Below, piece after piece: positions 1 through 11,862 of a DNA stretch of 64,000 nucleotides. The notes under the pieces were generated by a model, which worked only from the letters and a program-made list of their open reading frames with translations, was not told the origin of the DNA and made no database searches. Numbering within the stretch: position 1 is the first letter of the stretch; every line of letters begins with the position of its first letter. Source of the DNA: Nocardiopsis ansamitocini (lineage in GTDB: Bacteria > Actinomycetota > Actinomycetes > Streptosporangiales > Streptosporangiaceae); the NCBI RefSeq assembly GCF_030268225.1, contig NZ_BSQG01000008.1, positions 62,001 to 126,000 of the forward strand, in the 5' to 3' direction. The translations under genes and the position numbers were made by a program.

Positions 1-158
1 TCCTGGGCTGGCTCCCCTTCACCTACGGGCTGCTGGCCGGATACCTGGTGGTCCTGCTCGTGTGGGAGTCCGCTACCAGTTGGCTCGACGCCCCCGTTCC
101 CACGGAGGCCGGCGAGCCGCGCAACGAAGCAGGAGGCATTGACGCCTCCGCGATCTGA
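1..158 (+). CDS. C-terminal end of a membrane protein (partial)
   Basis: An open frame enters from the left edge and stops with TGA at 156-158, giving about 51 residues. The visible part begins with a hydrophobic stretch (LLAGYLVVLLVW) and ends in a polar tail rich in Glu, Ala and Gly, as expected for the last membrane helix and cytoplasmic or external tail of an integral membrane protein. The stop is 21 bp before the next gene, so it is probably the upstream member of the same operon. The family cannot be named from this fragment. Confidence 0.6.
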   Translation, partial: LGWLPFTYGLLAGYLVVLLVWESATSWLDAPVPTEAGEPRNEAGGIDASAI

Positions 159-179: not shown

Positions 180-911
180 ATGCTCGGTATGGTCCTCGCT
201 GCGGGAGCGGGCCGACGGCTCCGCCCCTACACCGACACCCTGCCCAAGGCCCTCGTCCCTGTCGATGGTGAGACCACCATCATGGACATCTCGCTGCACA
301 ACCTCGCGGCCTCGGGTCTCACCGACGTCGTCGTCGTGGTCGGCTACCGCTCCGAAGCGGTGGAGCAGCGCAAGGAGGCGCTGGAGCAGCGCCACGGCGT
401 CAGCATCACCCTCGTCCACAACGACAAGGCAGAGGAGTGGAACAACGCCTACTCCCTGTGGACGGCCCGCGACCACTTCGCCGAGGGCGTCCTCCTCGTC
501 AACGGCGACACCGTGCACCCGGTGAGCGTCGAAGAGACGTTGTTCGCCGCACGCGGACCGGAACTGCTCCTCGCGGTGGACAACGTGAAGACGTTGGCCG
601 AAGAGGAGATGAAGGTGACCCTGGACGAGGCCGGCCACGTCGCGCGGATCACCAAACTCATGGACCCGGCCACCGCCGCCGGCGAGTACATCGGGGCCAC
701 CCTCATCGAGGGCTCGCTGGCGGGTCGCCTCGCCGACGCTCTGAAGGCCACCTGGGAGCGCGACCCCGACCTGTACTACGAGGACGGCTACCAGGAGCTC
801 GTCAACCGTGGCGGCAAGGTCGCCGTCGCCCCCATCGGCAAGGTGGACTGGGTCGAGGTCGACAACCACGACGACCTCGCCCGCGCGCGGGAGATCGCAT
901 GCCGCTACTAG
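180..911 (+). CDS. LicC-like nucleotidyltransferase (sugar/alcohol-phosphate cytidylyltransferase)
   Basis: A 243-residue protein with the nucleotidyltransferase signature LAAGAGRRLRPYT (residues 6-18), the following LPKALVPV with Lys23, and NGDT near residue 109 for the metal ion. The EWNNAYSLW stretch and the short length are typical of phosphocholine or inositol-phosphate cytidylyltransferases rather than longer glucose-1-phosphate enzymes. The ATG at 180 has AAGGAAGG a few bases upstream. The stop overlaps the start of the dehydrogenase gene by 13 bp, so the two are translated together. Inference: it activates the alcohol or polyol phosphate made by the next gene as a CDP derivative for the CDP-alcohol transferase that follows. 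The exact substrate is not determined by sequence. Confidence 0.85.
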   Translation: MLGMVLAAGAGRRLRPYTDTLPKALVPVDGETTIMDISLHNLAASGLTDVVVVVGYRSEAVEQRKEALEQRHGVSITLVHNDKAEEWNNAYSLWTARDHFAEGVLLVNGDTVHPVSVEETLFAARGPELLLAVDNVKTLAEEEMKVTLDEAGHVARITKLMDPATAAGEYIGATLIEGSLAGRLADALKATWERDPDLYYEDGYQELVNRGGKVAVAPIGKVDWVEVDNHDDLARAREIACRY

Positions 912-1966
912 CCCGGATGGTTTCCTCCCCCCTGGCAATCGACGTGCGCCGCGGCGCGATCGCCGACCTCGGGGTGCTGCTGGCGGACCGCCGCATCGCC
1001 AACGAGGGCCGCATCGCCGTGGCGGTCGGTCCGGGCCAGGGGGCCCAGATCGCCGCCGACCTCGATCTCCCGCACTGCGAGATCTTCCAGGTCGAGGGCG
1101 GCAGCGTCGACGTCGCCAACGAACTGGGCAAGAAACTGCGCGCCGGCGCGTTCGAGGCGGTGGCGGGGATCGGCGGCGGCAAGACCATCGACGTCGCCAA
1201 GTTCGCCGCCTCCATGGCCGGGATCCCCATGGTGGCCGTGGCCACCAACCTCTCCCACGACGGCATCGCCTCACCGGTCAGTTCGCTGGAGCACGAGAGC
1301 GGAAAGGGCTCCTACGGCGTCGTCATGCCCATCGCGGTCATCGTCGACGTCGACTACGTGCGTGCGGCGCCCCCGCGCCTGGTCCGCTCCGGTATCGGTG
1401 ACGTGGTCAGCAACCTCTCGGCCATCGCCGACTGGGAACTGGCCGGACGCGAGCAGGGCGAGCCGGTGGACGGCATGGCCGTCACCTTCGCCCGGGTCGC
1501 GGCCGAGGCCATCCTGCACCGCCCCGACTCCATCGAGTCCCAGGAGTTCCTCACCGTCCTGGCGGAGGCACTGGTGCTCTCGGGTATGGCGATGTCGGTC
1601 GCCGGGTCGAGCCGGCCCGCCAGTGGCGCCTGCCATGAGATCCTGCACGCCATCGACCAGCTCTACCCCGGCACCAGCAACCACGGCGAGCTCGCCGGTC
1701 TGGGCGCGCTGTTCGCCACCTTCCTGTGCACCACCCGCCTGGACGAAGGCCACCAGCGTTTCGCCGACGTGCGCGCCTGCCTGCTGCGCCACGACCTCCC
1801 CACCACCCCCGCTGACGTCGGTCTGGGAGAGGAGGACTTCGCGCGCGCGATCGCCTTGGCACCCGCCACCCGCCCGGGACGCTTCACGGTCCTGGAGCAC
1901 CTCAACCTGACCGAAGACGAGATCGCCCGGAGCGTCCGTGACTATGTCCAAGCCCTCAGTCGCTGA
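899..1966 (+). CDS. Iron-containing alcohol dehydrogenase family, sn-glycerol-1-phosphate dehydrogenase-like
   Basis: A 355-residue protein, the usual size of AraM/EgsA-type glycerol-1-phosphate dehydrogenases. GIGGGKTID (about residues 90-98) is the NAD(P)-binding glycine motif and SHDGIASP is the substrate-loop motif of that subgroup. The three expected metal ligands appear as Asp168 (GIGD), His246 (ACHEILH) and His262 (NHGE). The family reduces dihydroxyacetone phosphate to sn-glycerol-1-phosphate, the stereoisomer used in archaeal lipids. I chose the ATG at 899, which has GGGAG six bases upstream; the ATG at 917 (MVSSPL) is the alternative. It overlaps the gene before it and the gene after it, placing it in the middle of one operon. 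A different polyol phosphate as substrate is possible. Confidence 0.82.
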   Translation: MPLLARMVSSPLAIDVRRGAIADLGVLLADRRIANEGRIAVAVGPGQGAQIAADLDLPHCEIFQVEGGSVDVANELGKKLRAGAFEAVAGIGGGKTIDVAKFAASMAGIPMVAVATNLSHDGIASPVSSLEHESGKGSYGVVMPIAVIVDVDYVRAAPPRLVRSGIGDVVSNLSAIADWELAGREQGEPVDGMAVTFARVAAEAILHRPDSIESQEFLTVLAEALVLSGMAMSVAGSSRPASGACHEILHAIDQLYPGTSNHGELAGLGALFATFLCTTRLDEGHQRFADVRACLLRHDLPTTPADVGLGEEDFARAIALAPATRPGRFTVLEHLNLTEDEIARSVRDYVQALSR

Positions 1967-2714
1967 GGTCCGCTCCGGCGGCCAGCCGGAAGGGATCAAG
2001 GAGCGCGTCAACGAGGAGCACTGGGCCGGTCGGCTCTACATGCGCGACCTCTCGCCCTACCTGAGCACCGTCTTCGTGCGCATGGGTGTTCCGCCGAACC
2101 CCATCACCTACCTGATGATGGCGTTCGGCGTCCTGGCCGGGGTCGCCCTGGCCTTCGGCGGCCTGTGGTCGGCGATCCTCGCCGCCGTGCTGATCCAGAT
2201 CTACCTGCTGCTCGACTGCTCTGACGGCGAGGTGGCCCGTTACACCGGGCGCACCAGCGTCGCGGGCATCTACCTGGACCGTATCGGTCACTACCTGTCC
2301 GAGATCGCGCTGCTCATCGGGCTTGGCATCCGTGCCCAGGGCGGGTTCGAGGCGGGGATCTGGGTCATCGCCGGCATGGCTGCCGCCATTGGTGCCGCGC
2401 TGATCAAGGTCGAGACCGACAACGTGGTGGTGGCCCGCGCCAAGGCCGGACTTCCGGAGAAGATCGCCGACTCCGCGATGCAACCGCGTTCGGCCGGACT
2501 GGGCCTGGCCCGCAAGATCGCCTCCGCGCTGCTCTTCCACCGCGTGATCCAGGCCGTCGAACTGTCGCTGCTGGTGGTGGTCGTGGCCGTCGTGGACCAG
2601 TTCCGCGGCGACCTGCTCGCCACCCAGGTGCTGGTCGTGGTGTGTGTCGCCGTGGCGGCCCTGCAGACGGTGCTGCACCTGGTCAGCGTGCTCGCTTCGC
2701 GCCGACTGCACTAG
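1938..2714 (+). CDS. CDP-alcohol phosphatidyltransferase family membrane protein
   Basis: A 258-residue multi-helix membrane protein with the CDP-alcohol transferase motif between residues 93 and 118: Asp93, Asp96-Gly97, Ala100-Arg101, Gly110 and Asp114. The last position of the motif, normally Asp and thought to act as the catalytic base, is His118 here. The family moves a phosphoalcohol from a CDP donor to a hydroxyl acceptor in the membrane. GTG at 1938 is five bases after GGAG; ATG at 1944 is an alternative. The start lies 29 bp inside the dehydrogenase gene, so translation is coupled. With the cytidylyltransferase and dehydrogenase it forms a complete make-activate-transfer set. Confidence 0.85.
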   Translation: MTMSKPSVAEVRSGGQPEGIKERVNEEHWAGRLYMRDLSPYLSTVFVRMGVPPNPITYLMMAFGVLAGVALAFGGLWSAILAAVLIQIYLLLDCSDGEVARYTGRTSVAGIYLDRIGHYLSEIALLIGLGIRAQGGFEAGIWVIAGMAAAIGAALIKVETDNVVVARAKAGLPEKIADSAMQPRSAGLGLARKIASALLFHRVIQAVELSLLVVVVAVVDQFRGDLLATQVLVVVCVAVAALQTVLHLVSVLASRRLH

Positions 2715-2842: not shown

Positions 2843-3844
2843 ATGAGCAGTTCTGTCCCCTCGAGCGCCCCTCGGCAGACCGACGAGTCCGTCGTGGCGG
2901 GAGTGTCCATCCAGGACGCCGCAGAGGTTTCGCATCCGGTCGCAGGAGAACAGGCCGGTTCGGGGGATCGTGAAGGTGTGCAGCGGTTGAAGATCTCGGT
3001 GATCCTGCTGACCATGGGAAATCGCCCGGCGGAGTTGCGCCGGGCGATCCAGAGCGTCTTCGAGCAGGAGGACGTCGACACCGAGGTCATCGTCGTCGGC
3101 AACGGCTCGGACCTCCCCGAACTCGGAGAGGGCGTTGTCACGCTGCGCCTGCCCGAGAACATCGGAATCCCGGCGGGGCGCAACGAGGGCGTCAAGATCA
3201 GTACCGGCGACATCGTGGTCTTCCTCGACGACGACGGCTGGTACCGATCGCGTGATCTCGCCCGTCACGTGCACGACCGTTTCGCCGCCGACCCCGAGCT
3301 GGGGGCGCTGTCGTTCCGTATCGCCGACCCCGACGGCGGGCCCGACCAGCGCAGACACGTCCCCCGGCTGCGCGTGGGCGACCCCCGGCGTTCCAGCAGG
3401 GTCACCACCTTCCTGGGCGGCGCCTCAGCGGTTCGACGCACCGCCTTCGACATGGGCGGGGGGCTGCCCGGAGCGTTCTTCTACGCCCATGAGGAGACCG
3501 ACCTCGCCTGGCGCATCCTCGATGCCGGTTTCCACATCGAGTACGACGCCGAAGCGGTTATGTACCACCCTGCGGTCGCCCCCACCCGGCACGCAGACTT
3601 CTACCGCCTCAACGCCCGCAACCGGGTATGGCTGGCACGGCGCAACCTCCCCTGGCCGCTGGCACTGGCCTACCTGGGCACGTGGGTGGGGATGACGGTG
3701 CTGCGCGAGCGTTCCCGCCCCGCGCTGCGCTCCTGGTTCTCAGGGTTCGGCGAGGGCTGGCGCAGCGATGCCGGACCCCGTACCCCCATTCGATGGTCGA
3801 CCGCCTGGCGCATGACCAAGGACGGCCGGCCCCCCGTCATCTGA
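2843..3844 (+). CDS. Family 2 glycosyltransferase
   Basis: GT-A fold protein of about 333 residues. ISVILLTMGNRP starts the nucleotide-binding strand, FLDDDGWY carries the metal-binding acidic cluster, and HEETDLAWRIL holds the acceptor-site acidic residues; all match inverting GT2 enzymes such as rhamnosyl or galactofuranosyl transferases. About 55 polar residues precede the catalytic domain. The start is uncertain: ATG 2843 is used here, while TTG 2813 would add ten residues. The preceding 128 bp contain a probable promoter zone, so this gene may be transcribed apart from the CDP-alcohol cassette. Inferred role: adds a sugar to a surface glycan or glycolipid; donor and acceptor are unknown. 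Confidence 0.8.
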   Translation: MSSSVPSSAPRQTDESVVAGVSIQDAAEVSHPVAGEQAGSGDREGVQRLKISVILLTMGNRPAELRRAIQSVFEQEDVDTEVIVVGNGSDLPELGEGVVTLRLPENIGIPAGRNEGVKISTGDIVVFLDDDGWYRSRDLARHVHDRFAADPELGALSFRIADPDGGPDQRRHVPRLRVGDPRRSSRVTTFLGGASAVRRTAFDMGGGLPGAFFYAHEETDLAWRILDAGFHIEYDAEAVMYHPAVAPTRHADFYRLNARNRVWLARRNLPWPLALAYLGTWVGMTVLRERSRPALRSWFSGFGEGWRSDAGPRTPIRWSTAWRMTKDGRPPVI

Positions 3845-4241: not shown

Positions 4242-5492
4242 TCACAAATCGCTGTCCGAGGCGGTGATTCCGGCCCCGCGGCGTGGCCCCCGCCATTGTT
4301 GTGTCCCCGCCTGCTGTGGCAACCCGGGAACCTCCGGGCCTTCGGGCTCGCCCGCCGACTCGCCGCGTTCCCGGCGCACGAACACCTGGGGCTGCGTCGG
4401 ACGTTCGCACCCCGCCCACTCCTCCAGCGTCCGCACGAACGCCTCGGCCTGCACCGGCCAGTGGAACCGGTCCCGCGCGATCGTGTGCCCGGTACGGGCG
4501 TAGTCGCCGCGCAGTCGGGCGTCCTTGCGAAGCCGCAACACCGCCTCGACCGCGGCATCCGCGTCGTTGAACGGAACCACGATCCCGCACTCGCCCTGCG
4601 GCTGGTCCGTCACCAGTGCCGCGGCCGCGGGATTGGGCGAGGTCACCACGGGCAGGCCGTGCGCCATGTACTCCACGACCTTCGTCGGCAGGGAGTGGCG
4701 GTAATTGGGGGTGTCGTGCAGCAGGGACAGTCCCGCCAACGCGCCCCCGACCAACCGCAGCGCCTGGTCGTTGGGGACGAACCCGTACCAGCGGATCGCA
4801 TCCTCCAGCTGCGCCTGACGCAGCATCGGCCTGACCTCGGCGTCGGCCGCGCCGATCACCTCCACCGAAACCCCGTGCGGGCGCAGCCGCCGCCCCAGCT
4901 CGACCAGCTCGGCCGCGCCGCGCGCCATGGAAAGCTGCCCCAGGTAGACGACCCGATCGGCACCTGGCTCGCGTCCGGGCTGCCCCGGCACGTAGGTCGT
5001 GTTGGGTACCACCGGGTGCTCACCGCGGAACCGACCCCGGTAGCCCTCCTCGGCCAACAGCAGCCGCATCCTGCGCTCCGCCCGGCGTTCGAAACCGCGC
5101 ACCACCGGCCCCAGTGGTCGACGCAGCCAGCGCGGTACCCATGGTTTCGTCAGCAGGGCAGCGGCCGGGTCCTCGTGCACGTCCCACACCGTCACCGGTC
5201 GGTTCGACGGCAGGGCGAGCAGGAGCTCCGGATCATGGAAGAGCAGGACGTCGGCCTCCGGGGTGTGTTCGGCCAGCACCCGCCGCGCCGCGCGCAGCGC
5301 GGCCAACCGCCGCCGCCCGGCCGCCCTGGGCACGTCCACCGCGACCAGCTCCGGCCAGGGCGTCACACCCCGAGCCCGAAACGGAGCGACGTAGGTGACC
5401 GTGTGTCCCGCGTCCAGCAGCGCCCTGATCTGGCGGTGCAGAATGCGGGCGTCCTCCGGGTGGTGCACCACCGTTGCCACGAGCACGTGCAT
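4242..5492 (-). CDS. Family 4 glycosyltransferase
   Basis: A 416-residue GT-B protein. The N-terminal Rossmann half begins MHVLVATVVHHPEDARI; the C-terminal half has the donor-binding segment SLPTKVVEYMAHGLPVV containing the E-x7-E type pattern of GT4 enzymes. The chosen start (cat at 5490-5492) fits the family N-terminus; the open frame extends 58 codons further upstream but without family similarity. The last 45 residues after EEWAGC are low-complexity and Gly/Arg/Gln-rich. An upstream hairpin at 5617-5655 separates it from the UDP-sugar dehydrogenase gene, so it likely has its own promoter. Donor sugar is not predictable. Confidence 0.8.
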   Translation of the reverse strand: MHVLVATVVHHPEDARILHRQIRALLDAGHTVTYVAPFRARGVTPWPELVAVDVPRAAGRRRLAALRAARRVLAEHTPEADVLLFHDPELLLALPSNRPVTVWDVHEDPAAALLTKPWVPRWLRRPLGPVVRGFERRAERRMRLLLAEEGYRGRFRGEHPVVPNTTYVPGQPGREPGADRVVYLGQLSMARGAAELVELGRRLRPHGVSVEVIGAADAEVRPMLRQAQLEDAIRWYGFVPNDQALRLVGGALAGLSLLHDTPNYRHSLPTKVVEYMAHGLPVVTSPNPAAAALVTDQPQGECGIVVPFNDADAAVEAVLRLRKDARLRGDYARTGHTIARDRFHWPVQAEAFVRTLEEWAGCERPTQPQVFVRRERGESAGEPEGPEVPGLPQQAGTQQWRGPRRGAGITASDSDL

Positions 5493-5616
5493 ATCCGTCG
5501 CCTGCCTCTCTGCCAGCCCGTCGTGCGGCCCCACGCTAAGGAATGGGGGAAACAGCCGGTGAAAAGCAGGGTTACGGGGGGGCGTTGGCTGAGTGAACCT
5601 CGGACCGGTCCACCGC

Positions 5617-5655
5617 GAGGGGCCCACCACGACCATCCGTTGTGGTGGGCCCCTC
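5617..5655 (-). terminator. Hairpin terminator downstream of the UDP-sugar dehydrogenase
   Basis: Perfect 14-bp inverted repeat GAGGGGCCCACCAC / GTGGTGGGCCCCTC around an 11-nt loop, beginning 19 bases after the dehydrogenase stop on the minus strand. No long U tract follows, which is common for actinobacterial terminators. Confidence 0.75.
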
Positions 5656-5674
5656 CCGGCAGGCACTGCTCAGG

Positions 5675-6997
5675 TCACAGGACCTGGATGCCCTCGCGCG
5701 CGATCGGCGTCGTGATCCGGTGGTCCAGCTGCGCGTCCGGTCCCAGCCGGCGCAGCACGCCCCGGGTGTCCAGGAGCAGCTTGGCGTTCCGGGTCAACAG
5801 CTCCGCCGAGTACTCGGAGTGGTCGGTGAGCAAAATGGTGAGATCGGCCTCGGCCAACGCCCGCTCCAGGTCCTCGGTGCGGGGCACCGCTGCGCCGTTC
5901 ACCGTCCACTCCGCGACCCGGGGGTCGTGGTAGCTCACCGTGGCGCCCTTGCCGGCGAGCTTGGCCGCCACCGGGCGCGCCGGCGACTCGCGCTGGTCGG
6001 CGATATCGGCCTTGTAGGTCACGCCCAGGAGCAGCACCGTGGAGCGCGACAGCGCGAGACCGGCGTCGTTGAGCATCTCCTGGGCCCGCTGCAACACGTA
6101 GGAGGGCATCCGCGCGTTGATCTCCTGCGCGAGCTCGACGAACCGGAACGGGTACCCCAGCGTCTTGACCTTGTAGGACAGGTAGTTCGGGTCGATCGGG
6201 ATGCAGTGCCCGCCCACCCCGGGGCCGGGATAGAACGCCTGGAAGCCGAACGGCTTGGTCCCCGCGCACGCGATCGCGTCCCACAGGTCGACCCCGAGCT
6301 CCTGGCAGAAGATCGCCATCTCGTTGACTAGCGCGATGTTGACGTGCCGGTAGGTGTTCTCCAGCAGCTTGGCCATCTCGGCCTCGCGCGTCCCGTGCGC
6401 CTGGACCACCGTCTGCACGAACTTGCCGTAGAAGGCGCCGGCGGCGGCGCCGCAGCTTTCGGTGTGCCCCCCGACGACCTTGGGGGTGTTGGCCACACCG
6501 TAGACCGGGTTGCCCGGGTCGATACGCTCCGGTGAGAACGCCAGGGAGAAGTCCTCACCGGCCACCAGGCCCGACTGCTCCAGGATCGGTCGCACGATCT
6601 CGTCGGTGGTGCCCGGGTAGGTGGTCGACTCCAGGACCACGAGCGTGCCGGGCTTCAGCTCCGCGCGGATCGCCTCGGCGGCGGCGGTGACCGCGCCAAG
6701 GTCCGGTCCGCCCTCCGCCGACAACGGCGTGGGAACGCAGATCACGATCGTCTGGGTCGATCCCAGAACGGTCGGGTCGGACGTGGCCTGGAAGCCCGCG
6801 GCGCGCATGACGGCGATGTCGGCCTCGGAGAGGTCGTCGACGTGCGACCGGCCGGCGTTCAACCCCTCGATCACCCGTGGGCTCACGTCGAGTCCGGTGA
6901 CCTTCAAACCGACCTTGCTGGCCTCGTGCGCCAGAGGCAGCCCCACGTAACCGAGGCCGATGACGACCAGATCTGATGGTGCGGTCGAGACGCCCAC
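5675..6997 (-). CDS. wecC: UDP-N-acetyl-D-mannosamine dehydrogenase (WecC/WbpA type)
   Basis: A 440-residue nucleotide-sugar dehydrogenase. GLGYVGLP near the N-terminus is the NAD site, and GGHCIPIDP contains the catalytic Cys265; the C-terminal part has VTYKADIADQRESPA, typical of the UDP-binding domain. The family oxidises the C6 hydroxyl of a UDP-sugar to the carboxylate in two NAD-dependent steps. The closest subgroup by motif uses UDP-ManNAc or UDP-GlcNAc. The presence of a UDP-GlcNAc 2-epimerase 2 kb away supports UDP-ManNAc, giving UDP-ManNAcA for a surface polymer. The GTG start at 6997 has GGGAGAG upstream. Substrate choice between ManNAc and GlcNAc remains inference. Confidence 0.88.
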   Translation of the reverse strand: MGVSTAPSDLVVIGLGYVGLPLAHEASKVGLKVTGLDVSPRVIEGLNAGRSHVDDLSEADIAVMRAAGFQATSDPTVLGSTQTIVICVPTPLSAEGGPDLGAVTAAAEAIRAELKPGTLVVLESTTYPGTTDEIVRPILEQSGLVAGEDFSLAFSPERIDPGNPVYGVANTPKVVGGHTESCGAAAGAFYGKFVQTVVQAHGTREAEMAKLLENTYRHVNIALVNEMAIFCQELGVDLWDAIACAGTKPFGFQAFYPGPGVGGHCIPIDPNYLSYKVKTLGYPFRFVELAQEINARMPSYVLQRAQEMLNDAGLALSRSTVLLLGVTYKADIADQRESPARPVAAKLAGKGATVSYHDPRVAEWTVNGAAVPRTEDLERALAEADLTILLTDHSEYSAELLTRNAKLLLDTRGVLRRLGPDAQLDHRITTPIAREGIQVL

Positions 6998-7024
6998 AGT
7001 TCTCTCCCTTGTGGTGAATTCGCG

Positions 7025-7050
7025 ATTGCCGGAGAGGTCGAAACGGCAAT
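7025..7050. promoter_or_regulatory. Inverted repeat in the leader of the UDP-sugar dehydrogenase gene
   Basis: ATTGCCG at 7025-7031 is mirrored by CGGCAAT at 7044-7050, 12 bases apart, in the 75-bp gap between the GT4 stop and the dehydrogenase start. It could end transcription of the upstream gene or act as an operator; the sequence does not decide. Confidence 0.35.
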
Positions 7051-7072
7051 TCAGTGAACTAGACGTCTGAGG

Positions 7073-8803
7073 TTAGTTCTGCGTTGCCGGTGTCCAGGAG
7101 GTATGGCCTGGTTCGGACAATCCACGATTGACCGTGGTGTACACATCGATGTAGATGTATGCGGCCGCACGCCATGTGCGATGCGCGCCCACACTCTCAC
7201 GTGCTGCTAAGCCGTACGCCTCTCGTACATCAGGACTGTAAAACAGTCTTTCCAGGCAATTCGACAGGGTTTCCGAGTCGCCTGCGGGAATTAACTCTCC
7301 CGTCACTCCGGGTTTCACAATTTCACTGAGCGCCAAAAGATCACTTGCGACGACAGGAAGCCCACTCGCCATCGCCTCCACCGGTTTCAACGGCGTCACC
7401 AAGCGGCACACCCGGTCGTCCCGGCGGGGGACGGCGAACACGTCCAACGCCGCGTGGTGGACCCGAACCTGCTCGGCCGGGACCCGGCCCGGGAAGTGCG
7501 CGTATCCGTTTAGCCCCGCTGCCGCGGCCCGCTCGCGCAGCGCACCCAACTCCGGGCCGTCCCCCACCACCAGGGCATGTGCGGGCACCCCGCGCTTGCG
7601 CAGCAGCGCGGTGGCGTCCACCAGCGACTCCAGTCCCTCGTAGCCGTAGCAACTGGTCGTCGTGCCCACCACGAAGTCGTCGGGCCCGATACCCAGCTCC
7701 CGTCGCAGGTCCGCCCCATCGGGGAGCGGGGCCAGGAACGCCTCGTCCACTGCGTTGGCCACGACGGCCACCTTGGCCGGATCGATCCCACGGGACACGA
7801 TCTCGGCGCGCATGGCCTCGCCCAGCGTCACCACCGTGTCGGCTTCACGCATGCAGGCGGTCTCGCGTTCCCGCTCCGCCACGAAGAACGCGTCGTCGGG
7901 GCTGCGCGAGGGGTCCCGGGACAGCCACGACTCCTCCAGGAACCCCCGCACCTCGTAGACCACCGGCAGACCGAATCTGCGGCCCAACTCCAAGGCCAGC
8001 CGCGCGTTGCGGTAGTCGCTCGCCGCGTGCAGCACCCCCGGGCGCAACCGCCGCACCAAGGGCTCCGCCAGCCGCAGACCGGCGGCCAGCGCCTCGGCGT
8101 CGCCGGCCGGGGCCCGCCACGGCAACAGCCGATGGTAGGGGATCCCGTCCACCTCCACTGTGGTCCGCGCGTCCAGCACCCCCTTGGTGAGAGGAAAACC
8201 CACCCGCGTGACCACGTGCGGATCCAGCCCGGCCGCGCGCTGGCCCAGCACGATCCGGTGCGTGCGCTGGGTGTAACCCGCGTTCGTGTGCGGTAGGGCA
8301 TTGCTGACGATATGCAGTACCCGAGCGTTCACCGGTTGGTAGCTCGGAGTTCTCCGCACCCGGTCTACGCTGGCGTCGACCCACCGGCTAGGTGTTTGGA
8401 CAGGAATGGTCCGTCCTGTCCGGACGCTCAACCGGTGCGCCAGCGCGGCGCGGCGCGGCCCCTCCGGGAGCCGGGCCAACAGGAGGTCCGCCAGACCGGG
8501 GCGCTCCACCGCGATCGCGAAGGCGGTCAGGCGCGCCAGCCGGCGAGGCCCGGCCGACTCCGCGGCGTCGCGCACCACGGCCTCGGCATCGGTGCGGCGG
8601 CCCGCGTCCCACAGGGCGTAGGCCCTGGGCAGCGGTCCCAGCCCCGAACCGGTACGGCGCGCACCGCGCCGCATCGGCCCGGGGAGCAGCCGCAGGGCCA
8701 GGAGCGGCAGCCGGGCGGGTTCGTCCCGCAGGTGGCGCAGGGTCAGGGACGCGGTGAAGGTGGCCGCTTTCACGATGTCGTACACGGTCCGGAATGAAAG
8801 CAC
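7073..8803 (-). CDS. Family 4 glycosyltransferase with N-terminal extension
   Basis: About 576 residues. The first 150 or so are Arg/Ala/Leu-rich and unassigned; the GT-B region starts at VLHIVSNALPHTNAGYTQR and ends with TPLKPVEAMASGLPVVAS and the following EIVKPGVTGEL, a clear GT4 donor site. The start is taken as GTG 8803 because similarity to any family is absent upstream; it has no strong ribosome binding site, so a later GTG is possible. It is divergent from the 2-epimerase gene, with a 78-bp shared promoter region. The last 300 bp are less GC-rich than the surroundings. Inferred to build the same polymer as the ManNAcA enzymes. Confidence 0.78.
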   Translation of the reverse strand: MLSFRTVYDIVKAATFTASLTLRHLRDEPARLPLLALRLLPGPMRRGARRTGSGLGPLPRAYALWDAGRRTDAEAVVRDAAESAGPRRLARLTAFAIAVERPGLADLLLARLPEGPRRAALAHRLSVRTGRTIPVQTPSRWVDASVDRVRRTPSYQPVNARVLHIVSNALPHTNAGYTQRTHRIVLGQRAAGLDPHVVTRVGFPLTKGVLDARTTVEVDGIPYHRLLPWRAPAGDAEALAAGLRLAEPLVRRLRPGVLHAASDYRNARLALELGRRFGLPVVYEVRGFLEESWLSRDPSRSPDDAFFVAERERETACMREADTVVTLGEAMRAEIVSRGIDPAKVAVVANAVDEAFLAPLPDGADLRRELGIGPDDFVVGTTTSCYGYEGLESLVDATALLRKRGVPAHALVVGDGPELGALRERAAAAGLNGYAHFPGRVPAEQVRVHHAALDVFAVPRRDDRVCRLVTPLKPVEAMASGLPVVASDLLALSEIVKPGVTGELIPAGDSETLSNCLERLFYSPDVREAYGLAARESVGAHRTWRAAAYIYIDVYTTVNRGLSEPGHTSWTPATQN

Positions 8804-8881
8804 CCGATGATGACCACCCGGTGACGCACAAGCGTCGTGCACGGGACGGTCGGATTCACTTCCTGAGAGGCGAGATCCCGC

Positions 8882-9976
8882 ATGTCCAACGAGGTCGTGC
8901 ATATCGTCGGCGCCCGCCCGAACTTCGTCAAAGCCGCCCCCGTGGTGGCCGCACTGCGGGAGAGGGGTGTGCGCCAGGCAGTGGTGCACACCGGTCAGCA
9001 CTACGACGACCGCATGTCGGCGGTGTTCTTCCGCGAACTGGGTCTGCCACGGCCCGACGTCGACCTCGGAGTGGGCTCGGGATCGCACGCCGAGCAGACG
9101 GCAGCACTGCTGGTAGGGCTGGAAGCGGAGTTCATCTCCCGTTCACCCGCCTTCGTCATCGTCTACGGCGACGTCAACTCCACGCTCGCCGCGGCCCTGG
9201 TCGCCGCCAAGCTGCACATCCCGGTCGCCCACGTGGAGGCGGGACTGCGCTCGTTCGACATGACCATGCCCGAGGAGGTCAACCGCCGGGTCACCGACCA
9301 GCTGAGCGACCTCGCCTTCGCAACCAGCCCCGAAGCGGTCGGCCACCTGGTCAACGAGGGCGTGGCGGTCGACCGGGTGCATCTCGTGGGCAACCCGATG
9401 ATCGACACCCTGCTGGGCAACCTCGACCGCTTCGACACCGCGGCCCTGCGCGAGAGCCTGGGGCTGCCCGACGTCTACGCCGCGGCGACCCTGCACCGCC
9501 CCGCCAACGTCGACGACCCCGCGATCGTCGCGCGCCTGGTGGCGCGCCTGCACGAGGTCGCCGACGGGGTCGACGTGGTCATGCCGGTCCACCCGCGCGG
9601 CCAGGCGGCGTTCGAGGCGGCCGGCCTGGCCGACCACCCGCGCGTACGCCTGCTGCCCCCTCTGGGCTACCTGGACTTCGTCACCCTGGTCCGCGGTTCC
9701 ACCGCCGTCATCACCGACTCCGGCGGCGTCCAGGAGGAGACCACCATCCTGGGGGTGCCCTGCCTCACGCTGCGCCCCAACACCGAGCGGCCCATCACCA
9801 TCACCCACGGGACCAACCGGCTGGTGACCGACACCGAACTCCCCGGTCTCATGGCCAAGATCCTCGCCGGGGACCGCCCCAACGGGGCGGTCGACTCGAT
9901 CCCGCCGCTGTGGGACGGCCGCGCCGGCGAGCGCATCGCCGCGGTCATGGTGGGCGAACTGGACCGCCGTGGCTGA
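8882..9976 (+). CDS. wecB: UDP-N-acetylglucosamine 2-epimerase, non-hydrolysing
   Basis: A 364-residue enzyme with the family hallmarks: VGARPNFVKAAP at the N-terminus, HTGQHYDDRMS, YGDVNSTLA, HVEAGLRSFD, LHRPANVDD, and TDSGGVQEE near the C-terminus. It interconverts UDP-GlcNAc and UDP-ManNAc in the cytoplasm. Length matches the family (about 360-380). The ATG at 8882 is preceded by GAGAGGCGAG. With the nearby dehydrogenase it completes the two-step route to UDP-ManNAcA, a precursor of teichuronic-type or capsular polymers. Confidence 0.93.
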   Translation: MSNEVVHIVGARPNFVKAAPVVAALRERGVRQAVVHTGQHYDDRMSAVFFRELGLPRPDVDLGVGSGSHAEQTAALLVGLEAEFISRSPAFVIVYGDVNSTLAAALVAAKLHIPVAHVEAGLRSFDMTMPEEVNRRVTDQLSDLAFATSPEAVGHLVNEGVAVDRVHLVGNPMIDTLLGNLDRFDTAALRESLGLPDVYAAATLHRPANVDDPAIVARLVARLHEVADGVDVVMPVHPRGQAAFEAAGLADHPRVRLLPPLGYLDFVTLVRGSTAVITDSGGVQEETTILGVPCLTLRPNTERPITITHGTNRLVTDTELPGLMAKILAGDRPNGAVDSIPPLWDGRAGERIAAVMVGELDRRG

Positions 9977-10167
9977 GCCGGACGCGCGCCGAGGCGGCGC
10001 GGTTTTCGCGACACTCGCAGGAGAAGCACCCCCGGTTGTGGACACCACCCCCGTCCGGAGCACGAGGATGGACCGGCCAGGGCCGGACCGTATCTCTCAG
10101 TGGCACGTGAAAGGAGGTTCGGCGCCAGCACCCCGCCGCTGCGGGCGGGACGCGCGCCGACAACGCT

Positions 10168-11862
10168 ATGAAACGACGTGACCAGAGCCAGACCGAGCAG
10201 CTGCGCAAGGCACTCGCCGACCGGGAGGCACAGCTCCACGAGGCCCAGACCCGACTCGCCGCACTGGAGGGGTCGACTTCGCTCCAGGTGGGGCGGGCGC
10301 TCACCGGGGCCGCCAAGCGGCCCGCGCGCGGGCTCGTCCGGCTGCCCCGCGAGCTCTACCGTCTGTGGCGCGGCAGCACCCGGACCAACCAGATCGGTGC
10401 GCGTCGCCGTCGGACCGCAGAACCGTCGCGGTCCTACGACGCCGAGCGCCAGGAGGCGCGGCTGCTCTCGGGAACGCCCGGCACTCACGACAGCCGCATC
10501 GTGGTCGCCGGAGTGCTCTCGCCCGAAGCACGCGCGGCCATCGAGCCCTACGCGCGCATCGTCCCGCTCCGCCCGCACGACGCCCAGGTCGTCTTCGACT
10601 CCGTGGACGTCGACCTCGTACTGGTCACGGCTTCCGCAGCCGAGCCGGGAACCGCGTGGGCGCACATAGGAGACCCGGCCGCGGCCGACCGCACCCGCGC
10701 GCTGCGCTGGGTGATCGATGCGGCCGCCTCCCGAGGGGTTCCCTCGGTCCTGGTCCAGGACGCGCCGGCTCCGCCCGCGCTCGCCACACTCGGGTTCGAC
10801 CACGTCCACGACGACGACCTCGGCGTGCCGCTGCACCGTTTCAACCCGGTTGCGGCCGAGCCCGAACGCGTGCCCACGCCCGTGCACGTGCCCTCCGCGG
10901 GCCGTCCCGTCCCGCTGCCGCCGGCGCTCGCCGAGCAGGACCTCACCCGCGCGACGGTGCGCTGGGACGGTCTGCCCGAGACGCTGCGTACGGCCTCCAC
11001 GGCAGTCGTCGGCACCGCGTGGCTGGCCGATCGCGCACTGGCGTGCGGAGCGCGCGCCCTGCTTGTGGGAGCCCGCCCCGAATCCGGTCTGCCCGAACAG
11101 GCGACCCGAACGGGGGCCACCCCACAGGACCTGGCCGGCGTGGTCGCCGACGGACCGCTCACCCCGGGCGAGACCCGCCGGGCACTGCGCGCGATCTTCC
11201 TGGCAAGGGCCACGCCGGTACGCCTGGCCGAGATCCTCGGCCAGGTGCACCTGGCACCCGGCTCCGGAGCCGACACCCTGCCGTTGACCGGACGTGCGGT
11301 GGCCGTGCTGGCCGCCCCCGCCGACGACATCGCTTCGCTGGCCTTCGCCGACGACGTGCTCCGCCAACTGCATGCACCCACCGAGGTCGTGGTGCCCGAG
11401 GCGTGCACGGAGTTCGCCGGGGTCAAGCGGTTGCAGGCCCGCGGTCTGACCGTGCGGACCGTGGCCGACGCGACCGTGGGCCGCTCCCGTGCGGACTGGG
11501 CCCGGCTCGCCGAAACGGCCACCACTCCGTGGGTGGCACTGTGGACCGGACCGGTCGGCGAGGCGTTCCTCGCTGACGCGCTGTGCGCGGCAGAATGCTC
11601 TGGAGCCGACGCCGTGGGCCCGGCGGTCACCCCCGGAGGAGCGGTCGAGGACGGGGCGCGCCCCGACGACCTCGATTGGGCGGTCGCCGGACAGGAGTAC
11701 GTGTTCGTCAGCGAGATCAGACCCGACGTCGCCCGGCGTGAACTGGTGCGCAAGGCCCTGCACCCCGGGGTGTGGAACCGCCACGGCGCCAGACTGCTGG
11801 CCCTTGGTCGGCTGCGCAGTGCAGGCCGCGACAACGAACCCGACCACGCCCACGCGGCCTGA
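10168..11862 (+). CDS. Uncharacterised coiled-coil protein of the glycan cluster
   Basis: A 564-residue soluble protein that I do not recognise as an established family. Residues 5-35 are heptad-like (QLRKALADREAQLHEAQTRL) and predict a coiled coil. The following segment with LQVGRALTGAAKRP and LPRELYRLWRG resembles the basic linker often found at the N-terminus of polysaccharide-cluster glycosyltransferases. Residues 110-240 and 360-480 alternate hydrophobic strands and Ala-rich helices and may be a degenerate GT-like fold, but no clear DxD or E-x7-E motif is visible. It lies between the 2-epimerase and the double glycosyltransferase, all on the plus strand. The ribosome binding site is weak. 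Confidence 0.6.
   Translation: MKRRDQSQTEQLRKALADREAQLHEAQTRLAALEGSTSLQVGRALTGAAKRPARGLVRLPRELYRLWRGSTRTNQIGARRRRTAEPSRSYDAERQEARLLSGTPGTHDSRIVVAGVLSPEARAAIEPYARIVPLRPHDAQVVFDSVDVDLVLVTASAAEPGTAWAHIGDPAAADRTRALRWVIDAAASRGVPSVLVQDAPAPPALATLGFDHVHDDDLGVPLHRFNPVAAEPERVPTPVHVPSAGRPVPLPPALAEQDLTRATVRWDGLPETLRTASTAVVGTAWLADRALACGARALLVGARPESGLPEQATRTGATPQDLAGVVADGPLTPGETRRALRAIFLARATPVRLAEILGQVHLAPGSGADTLPLTGRAVAVLAAPADDIASLAFADDVLRQLHAPTEVVVPEACTEFAGVKRLQARGLTVRTVADATVGRSRADWARLAETATTPWVALWTGPVGEAFLADALCAAECSGADAVGPAVTPGGAVEDGARPDDLDWAVAGQEYVFVSEIRPDVARRELVRKALHPGVWNRHGARLLALGRLRSAGRDNEPDHAHAA

Follow-up and report, generated by a model that had tools for sequence, protein, structure and literature searches.

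Introduction

The closest described counterpart of the genes treated here is a syntenic tagH/tagG/araM/CDP-alcohol transferase/GT2/nucleotidyltransferase region that was reported from 929 Streptomyces genomes and filed under teichoic acid biosynthesis (PMC13118837). We found the same genes in a 64,000-nucleotide stretch of Nocardiopsis ansamitocini DNA (the window; C8:62001-126000 of a 5.5-Mb genome), Nocardiopsis being a member of the order Streptosporangiales. A LicC/PntC-like nucleotidyltransferase (NT), a homologue of the glycerol-1-phosphate dehydrogenases (G1PDHs), termed DH, and a CDP-alcohol phosphotransferase, termed CDP-B, are encoded there one after the other and are followed by a GT2 glycosyltransferase. 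The excerpted text of PMC13118837 names neither a pathway nor a substrate and is silent on stereochemistry, on a lost signature residue, on the absence of TagD, and on any range beyond Streptomyces. The Streptomyces synteny is already known from that text, and we regard the cassette as probably of the CDP-polyol type, serving an envelope polymer and combining an unusual dehydrogenase with a noncanonical transferase.

Three better-studied systems share parts of this arrangement. Archaeal EgsA and Bacillus AraM are G1PDHs with the same fold, motifs, and ligand positions as DH. DH differs from both in its genomic context, since it occurs in an order without GGGPS above the cut-off and its gene adjoins those for a nucleotidyltransferase and a CDP-alcohol transferase. 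Archaeoglobus IPCT-DIPPS follows the same two-step logic of activation with CTP and then transfer by a CDP-alcohol phosphotransferase. However, the cassette has separate proteins for these steps, a G1PDH homologue in the operon, and a CDP-B that lacks the fourth aspartate. A further protein encoded upstream (protein A) keeps an IPCT-DIPPS-like fused layout with a degenerate nucleotidyltransferase-like half. The TagD/TagB/TagF pathway, by which Bacillus makes wall teichoic acid, would share with the cassette CDP-glycerol, TagG/TagH-type export, and LCP attachment. The cassette differs in that the order is without standard TagD (0/200 genomes), in the predicted use of sn-glycerol-1-phosphate (G1P) as opposed to sn-glycerol-3-phosphate (G3P), and in the membrane CDP-alcohol phosphotransferases that stand beside the TagF type.

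The G1P-type glycerol phosphate of lipoteichoic acid (LTA) derives from phosphatidylglycerol, and the sn-3 units of wall teichoic acid derive from CDP-glycerol (PMC7086022, PMC8262930, PMC5974469). Among actinomycetes, poly(glycerol phosphate) LTA is found in Streptomyces, where that of Streptomyces hygroscopicus is similar to the wall teichoic acid of the same species, and LTA was reported for Thermobifida fusca; clear LtaS orthologues were reported lacking for both genera (PMC3196553). Some actinobacteria do have LtaS, since bifidobacteria have tagB, tagG, tagH, and ispD clusters along with an ltaS homologue (PMC12286996). The excerpts of PMC11481543 and PMC6767563 contain nothing on the cassette. 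In the open-access literature, we found no paper on a G1P-to-CDP-glycerol route, its reach in the Streptosporangiales, the absence of GGGPS and TagD, or the lost aspartate.

Here, we propose that NT, DH, and CDP-B belong to a conserved actinobacterial cell-envelope cassette in which G1P would be made, activated as a CDP derivative, and put on an envelope glycopolymer or anchor. We hold this proposal tentatively, at slightly less than an even chance.

Results

Conservation of the cassette

The cassette is near-universal among the sampled genomes of Streptosporangiales and Streptomycetaceae. Of 200 genomes sampled from the order, 199 had a match to DH and all had one to CDP-B. NT was matched in 99 of 101 Streptomycetaceae genomes; in a sample of the phylum, DH was matched in 46 of 396. 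All 30 order-level loci (the best-scoring 30 of 199, the window's own included) and all 12 Streptomycetaceae loci (the best-scoring 12 of 99) had NT, DH, and a CDP-alcohol transferase gene contiguous and in the same orientation, separated by no more than 158 nt. These counts imply that the arrangement is not due to chance. The genes were also contiguous in 18/29 loci of the phylum sample, in 15/20 loci of a scan of named relatives, and in 11/12 DH-centered loci of a further set; the five sets overlap in genomes. The last set comprises the 12 DH-centered stretches of 16 (the other four are other loci of the window's genome), and the one locus that fails in it holds an additional DH copy standing alone. 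Among the named loci, the exceptions are lone copies in Nonomuraea (four) and an archaeal locus. One of the 18 contiguous phylum loci (L041) has a different CDP-transferase. A GT2 gene follows CDP-B in 29 of the 30 order-level loci, the remaining one being cut by a contig end.

Relatives in the named scan were mostly Nocardiopsis, Streptomonospora, and similar genera. The name Streptomycetaceae is a label that we gave to family f5, based on the resemblance of one of its cassettes (L094) to a Streptomyces plasmid and on a gene order as reported for Streptomyces. Against PLSDB, L094:8951-16066 was covered in full by the large Streptomyces fungicidicus plasmid NZ_CP023408.1 at 87% identity; 77% of this cassette is also on plasmid NZ_CP081497.1, and 11 of the 12 matching plasmid records are Streptomyces.

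In the most distant loci (L061 to L069, DH at ~39 to 44%), an NT-like stretch (25 to 33%) was present in seven of nine, on the same strand and 106 to 348 nt from DH; it was not seen near DH in L062 and L064. The pairing of NT with DH may therefore be much older than the full cassette, as the sequences of L061, L063, and L065 to L069 (DH at ~39 to 43% identity) suggest. Lone DH copies were seen as well. The genome of L094 has one (L095, 7379-8410, minus strand) beside genes that look by eye like Obg, L27, and L21, and the Nonomuraea copies (L085 to L088, near 10001-11040) have no cassette neighbors in the sequence read, which in L085 ends just past the gene.

The dehydrogenase is closest to G1PDHs

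By profile matches and predicted fold, DH is closer to the G1PDHs than to other glycerol dehydrogenases. The NCBIfam G1PDH model PRK00843 was its best match by far (246 bits, E = 4.6e-73), though below that model's cut-off of 413 bits. In a profile search of the PDB, the leading matches were the Methanocaldococcus G1PDH (4rgq, 1.3e-72), 3ce9 (2.9e-71), 5fb3 (9.6e-66), and 9h4x (3.4e-41), which is Bacillus subtilis AraM by its entry title; glycerol dehydrogenases outside the G1PDHs began at 6.7e-26. The entry 3ce9 is labeled a glycerol dehydrogenase and grouped within the G1PDHs in this search. The predicted model of DH (predicted local distance difference test [pLDDT], 92) gave Z scores of 42.9 with 3ce9, 42.5 with 4rgq (root mean square deviation [rmsd] of 2.1 over 322 aligned residues), 40.3 with 5fb3, and 38.5 with AraM, compared to 31 to 36 (36.0 at most) with other glycerol dehydrogenases.

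An earlier note on this DNA had pointed to Asp168, His246, and His262, which are the metal ligands in this family. All three are present and conserved: both histidines are invariant in 16/16 aligned sequences, one of them archaeal, and the aspartate is kept in 15 (Glu in L058). Numbered from ATG 917 instead of ATG 899, these residues are D162, H240, and H256. The SSRPxSGxxH motif of DH is common to archaeal G1PDHs, and SRPxSGxxH is also found in the Bacillus enzyme; 3ce9 carries Ser in place of the Arg. The profile and fold matches support G1P, suggested in the earlier note, as the likeliest intermediate.

The nucleotidyltransferase and its candidate nucleotide

In the PDB, the profile of NT matched LicC (1jyk, 1.8e-22), the fusion protein 6pd1 (5.5e-20), which we take to be of the PntC type, and 4jd0 (1.6e-16). 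Hexose-phosphate and other enzymes followed from 1.1e-10, and the IPCT structure 2xme (1e-8) scored no better than the hexose-phosphate enzymes. The two structures that lead this profile search thus belong to cytidylyltransferases that act on alcohol phosphates or phosphonates. The PK, NGDT, and W-x-E-x-D motifs are kept in the NT alignment. We predict that NT is a CTP:glycerol-1-phosphate cytidylyltransferase. CTP is favored mainly because of the PDB profile matches and the adjoining CDP-alcohol transferase gene.

A transferase without the fourth aspartate

The predicted model of CDP-B (mean pLDDT, 82) has the class I CDP-alcohol phosphotransferase fold, with Z scores of 18.0 with AF2299 (4o6m; rmsd of 3.3, 205 residues aligned), 16.4 with IPCT-DIPPS (4mnd), and 14.7 to 15.7 with phosphatidylinositol phosphate (PIP) synthases. 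AF2299 (1.1e-16) and IPCT-DIPPS (9.2e-7) were also its nearest PDB profile matches. These two are reported to have a small, hydrophilic donor pocket that would suit soluble donors (PMC4634129). The NCBIfam models for archaetidylinositol phosphate synthase (46.3 bits) and IPCT-DIPPS (44.3 bits) matched CDP-B, both under their cut-offs.

CDP-B carries the signature DxxDGxxAR...GxxxDxxxH. It keeps seven of the eight residues of D1xxD2GxxAR...GxxxD3xxxD4, with D4 replaced by His (His116 when counted from the Met at 1944). A pattern scan of loci L010 to L069 returned 52 signature matches, with His (37), Ala (11), or Asp (4) at D4. The four with Asp are not CDP-B proteins (L041, the A-type frame of L045, L059, and L067), and the 48 others are CDP-B orthologues, the window's own included. 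The 11 with Ala are the Streptomycetaceae loci. The orthologues keep D1 to D3, GxxAR, and G, and each of the 48 carries an acidic residue (Glu or Asp) four positions beyond D4. The D4 residue of the class I signature is the likely catalytic base (PMC4634129; also PMC6506517). In CDP-B, the His at this position may act as the base, or CDP-B and protein A may work as a pair.

Protein A, the second CDP-transferase-like protein encoded upstream of the cassette, has the full four-Asp motif in L083, L094, L096 to L102, and L104 and Gly at D4 in L105. In L009 (C8:50001-66000), the locus of the window, and in 14 of the 15 loci L070 to L084, only CDP-B matches the signature; the exception is L083, and L077 ends at a contig end. 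Decay of the A frame is plain to see in L009, L070, and L079. The L009 frame (10574-11503) has lost its nucleotidyltransferase-like half, with the catalytic motif lost in the Nocardiopsis-like group, and is still recognizable at ~35 to 52% identity in most relatives. By hhalign, the N-terminal half of protein A aligns with NT (probability 63, E = 7e-5), without the glycine-rich loop of NT, and the CDP-transferase half aligns with CDP-B (probability 99). Three lineage combinations were seen: intact A with His in CDP-B, intact A with Ala in CDP-B, and degenerate A with His in CDP-B. A further variant, L103 (7378-9858, same class), has NT and DH followed by a different, four-Asp CDP-alcohol phosphotransferase and no GT2.

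GGGPS, TagF, and TagD in the order

We searched for partner genes in the 200 Streptosporangiales genomes; the counts below refer to these genomes alone. GGGPS/PcrB (PF01884) was above the cut-off in none, with one match below it and no match in the window's own genome, and the B. subtilis and four archaeal controls matched. TagF-type proteins (PF04464) were found in 197 genomes, weakly in three of these. The single TagF-family match of the window's genome is a GT2-TagF fusion of 1177 aa, which lies in another locus (L090, C6:219000-238000) at 5144-10864 together with genes for a four-Asp CDP-alcohol phosphotransferase and an epimerase-like protein, which by eye resembles GalE. TagD was above the cut-off in 0/200 and scored 28 bits in the window's own genome. 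With TagF in 197 genomes and TagD above the cut-off in none, the cassette is the best visible candidate for a source of CDP-glycerol in the order, which would be of the G1P series. Genomes without TagF (G001, G108, and G130) or without DH (G002) may reflect assembly gaps.

Gene order and neighborhood

The earlier note had read three overlapping genes and then a GT2 gene, and both this order and its family assignments held up (Table 1). With DH starting at ATG 899, NT and DH overlap by 13 nt, and DH and CDP-B overlap by 23 to 29 nt; a gap separates CDP-B from the GT2 gene. The open frame of DH spans 437-1966, with ATG 899 and ATG 917 as candidate starts. We favor 899 because the resulting N terminus, MPLLARM..., is common to relatives (L085, L086, L088, L096, L097, and L104). 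A purine-rich gaaggaaggcg lies directly 5' of the NT ATG.

Table 1. Genes of the cassette and its flanks in the window, with family matches (Pfam unless named otherwise)
Feature	Position in window	Strand	Basis
NT, LicC/PntC-like nucleotidyltransferase, 243 aa	180..911	+	PF00483/PF12804 and PDB profile matches; NTP_transferase 2.1e-14
DH, glycerol-1-phosphate dehydrogenase homologue, 355 aa from ATG 899 (349 aa from ATG 917)	899..1966	+	Fe-ADH_2 2.0e-25; PRK00843 (NCBIfam)
CDP-B, CDP-alcohol phosphotransferase, 256-258 aa	1938/1944..2714	+	PF01066 28.9 bits; CDP-OH_P_transf 1.7e-6
GT2 glycosyltransferase, ~288 aa; start uncertain, open frame from 2813	2978..3844	+	PF00535 (Glycos_transf_2) 5.1e-16
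DUF5941 gene, 3' end; bulk upstream of window (L009:11469-12158)	1..158	+	PF19365 84.5 bits

Upstream of the cassette, L009 encodes an LCP ligase (minus strand), a GT2 (plus), a GDPD (minus), and IspD (minus), followed on the plus strand by an ABC-2 permease and an ATPase (TagG/TagH-like), the degenerate CDP-transferase-like frame, DUF5941, and the cassette. The names TagG and TagH follow the usage of PMC13118837 for the Streptomyces pair. Thus, a TagG/TagH-like exporter and an LCP ligase, the combination expected for wall teichoic acid, lie near the cassette in L009; this is not universal in relatives. A same-strand TagG-TagH pair was present in 13 of 15 cassette-bearing named loci (the other two are cut by contig ends), in the Streptomyces-type L094, and in the distant L102. 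In L094, the order is a fusion of A with DUF5941, NT, DH, CDP-B, GT2, permease, ATPase, and two squalene/phytoene-synthase-type genes. We use Nocardiopsis-like (L009 and L070 to L084) and other Streptosporangiales (L096 to L101, L104, and L105) as labels of our own. In several loci of the latter group, IspD-like, GDPD-like, and LCP-like frames were seen by eye near the cassette, and L099 has one weak ABC ATPase match downstream of GT2.

Three other readings of the neighborhood were tried and rejected. We considered hopanoid modification, since the squalene/phytoene-synthase-type genes follow TagH in L094. However, none was seen by eye beside the listed Streptosporangiales cassettes, so these genes look like a neighbor and not a partner. 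For CDP-ribitol made by a spare IspD/TarI, there was no clear spare: the only full IspD match of this genome adjoins the cassette, and of two further matches, one is partial but exceeds the cut-off (34.6 bits) and the other falls short of it. We also considered whether the DUF5941 region upstream contains a frameshift, but relatives such as L096 have two distinct genes at this place, and we read the two frames as two genes.

Downstream of the cassette, the window encodes a nucleotide-sugar dehydrogenase (5675-6997, minus strand), which is above an NCBIfam subfamily cut-off and close to UDP-ManNAc dehydrogenases, and a nonhydrolyzing UDP-GlcNAc 2-epimerase (8882-9976, plus strand), also above its cut-off. 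Lying amid glycosyltransferases, they suggest that a locus for a polysaccharide containing N-acetylmannosaminuronic acid adjoins the cassette.

Discussion

In the proposed pathway, DH would reduce dihydroxyacetone phosphate to G1P, and NT would use CTP to convert G1P into the G1P-series form of CDP-glycerol. CDP-B, together with protein A where this is intact, would then transfer glycerol-1-phosphate to a membrane-bound envelope acceptor, for which a glycopolymer linkage unit, a glycolipid, and a diacylglycerol anchor are candidates. GT2 could glycosylate the transfer product, the TagG/TagH-like transporters could export it, and LCP ligases could attach it. CDP-glycerol from the cassette could feed TagF-type polymerases too, given that genomes of the order show no standard TagD. 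In Actinobacillus, the G1P form serves in vitro as a substrate for two CTP:glycerol-phosphate cytidylyltransferases and for a TagF-like polymerase (PMC8262930). Our data establish gene families, gene order, conservation, and which partner genes occur; the two substrates, the nucleotide, the stereochemistry, the acceptor, and the connection with TagF are inferred. Reduction, activation, and transfer, the sequence of steps suggested in the earlier note, is plausible on these family assignments. The same note had placed archaeal-type glycerol stereochemistry in an actinobacterial lipid or glycan. A lipid of that kind is weakened as the product by the lack of GGGPS above the cut-off in the order, and the stereochemistry itself is less foreign to bacteria than was supposed, LTA being made of sn-glycerol-1-phosphate (PMC7086022). 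We think that the cassette probably serves the cell wall rather than archaeal-type membrane lipids.

Several observations weigh against this proposal. DH scores below the PRK00843 cut-off of 413 bits, and no sequence feature pins dihydroxyacetone phosphate or glycerol as its substrate. For NT, the NCBIfam ranking is led by AglF (77.5 bits, cut-off of 400), which uses UTP and glucose-1-phosphate; Arch_glmU, MurU, and IPCT-DIPPS (56.6 bits) follow, none near its own cut-off. The top NCBIfam model for CDP-B is a lipid-donor enzyme, and its sequence is compatible with a lipid donor. None of the 48 CDP-B orthologues has Asp at D4, and exchanging this Asp for Asn nearly abolishes a PIP synthase (PMC4634129). 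Protein A of this genome is without the motif as well, so no canonical catalytic transferase is present at the locus. TagD-family matches below the cut-off were seen in 167/200 genomes (the best at 66 bits versus 165), and a divergent TagD is possible. The three genomes without a TagF match retain DH and CDP-B. No TagG/TagH pair was seen in the 15 to 17 kb read for each of the eight loci L096 to L101, L104, and L105. Finally, Streptomyces is listed with all three archaeal lipid genes (PMC6431249).

We weighed four other explanations. The cassette could follow the same logic with another alcohol or nucleotide: the substrate of DH would be a keto-polyol phosphate or a different ketose phosphate, and the resulting polyol would be handled by the CDP-transferase and by NT, whether with CTP or with some other nucleoside triphosphate. 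The subthreshold scores of DH and NT allow for this, as do the varied substrates of the DH superfamily and the choline phosphate, phosphonate, and inositol phosphate used by PDB relatives of NT. However, the G1PDHs stand clear of other subfamilies, both in profile matches (1e-41 to 1e-72 versus 1e-26 at best) and in Z scores (38.5 to 42.9 versus 36.0 or less). DH also keeps the SRPxSG motif that the archaeal enzymes share with that of Bacillus, and CTP is the nucleotide to expect in an operon with a CDP-alcohol transferase. We judge a different alcohol or nucleotide to be unlikely, although it deserves serious attention. Less likely still is a cassette that only supplies CDP-glycerol to TagF-type polymerases, with CDP-B and protein A inactive or acting as regulators or scaffolds. 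The TagF and TagD counts and the loss of the presumed base in every CDP-B orthologue fit such a supply role. In addition, the TagF-like capsule polymerase Cps7D can build polymer from CDP-1-glycerol in vitro (PMC8262930). However, CDP-B is present in all 200 genomes with D1 to D3, GxxAR, and G kept, also where TagF is missing, and L103 has a different four-Asp CDP-transferase in the same slot, as if the reaction were needed.

An archaeal-type lipid, in which G1P would form the backbone of a phospholipid of the ether or ester kind, seems very improbable to us, although G1PDH genes in Streptomyces have been taken to allow for one. The genes listed for Streptomyces would favor it, and G1P is a substrate in vitro for PlsY and PlsC from bacteria (PMC13400652). 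Against it stand the GGGPS result for the order with its matching controls, which led us to reject an archaeal ether lipid as the main explanation, and the transporter and LCP context. In addition, G1P needs no cytidylylation on the archaeal-type lipid route. We give the least credence to a phosphonate or phosphocholine-type head-group pathway with NT as PntC or LicC, in spite of LicC and the PntC-type fusion being the best PDB matches of NT. The genome has three matches to the phosphoenolpyruvate (PEP) mutase family, which is generic (11 of 14 controls match). Two of the loci were checked for the EDK...NS motif, which marks PEP mutase (PepM), and neither shows it. The cassette has no visible genes for an aminotransferase or for choline metabolism, and a G1PDH-group dehydrogenase is not known as part of such pathways.

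The proposed envelope cassette can be extended into a broader and more doubtful hypothesis, which as a whole we consider rather unlikely. Streptosporangiales, and by gene order streptomycetes too, would have replaced the G3P/TagD route with CDP-(sn-1)-glycerol made by a G1PDH and a LicC-like enzyme. Their glycerol phosphate polymers, in the wall or linked to lipid, would be enantiomers of Bacillus wall teichoic acid, and this would also supply an LtaS-free route to LTA in actinomycetes. The CDP-alcohol phosphotransferases would be paired, one with His or no base of its own at D4, possibly as an A/B heterodimer.

The cassette is a concrete candidate for the source of actinomycete glycerol phosphate polymers without LtaS and, in Streptosporangiales, without standard TagD. 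The model yields a simple stereochemical prediction, and the L103 variant offers a natural case that bears on what the transferase must do. Bacterial G1PDH genes serve as evidence in the lipid-divide debate (PMC6431249, PMC5059525, PMC13400652). If actinobacterial G1PDHs serve wall-polymer precursors, their presence would say little about archaeal-like membranes.

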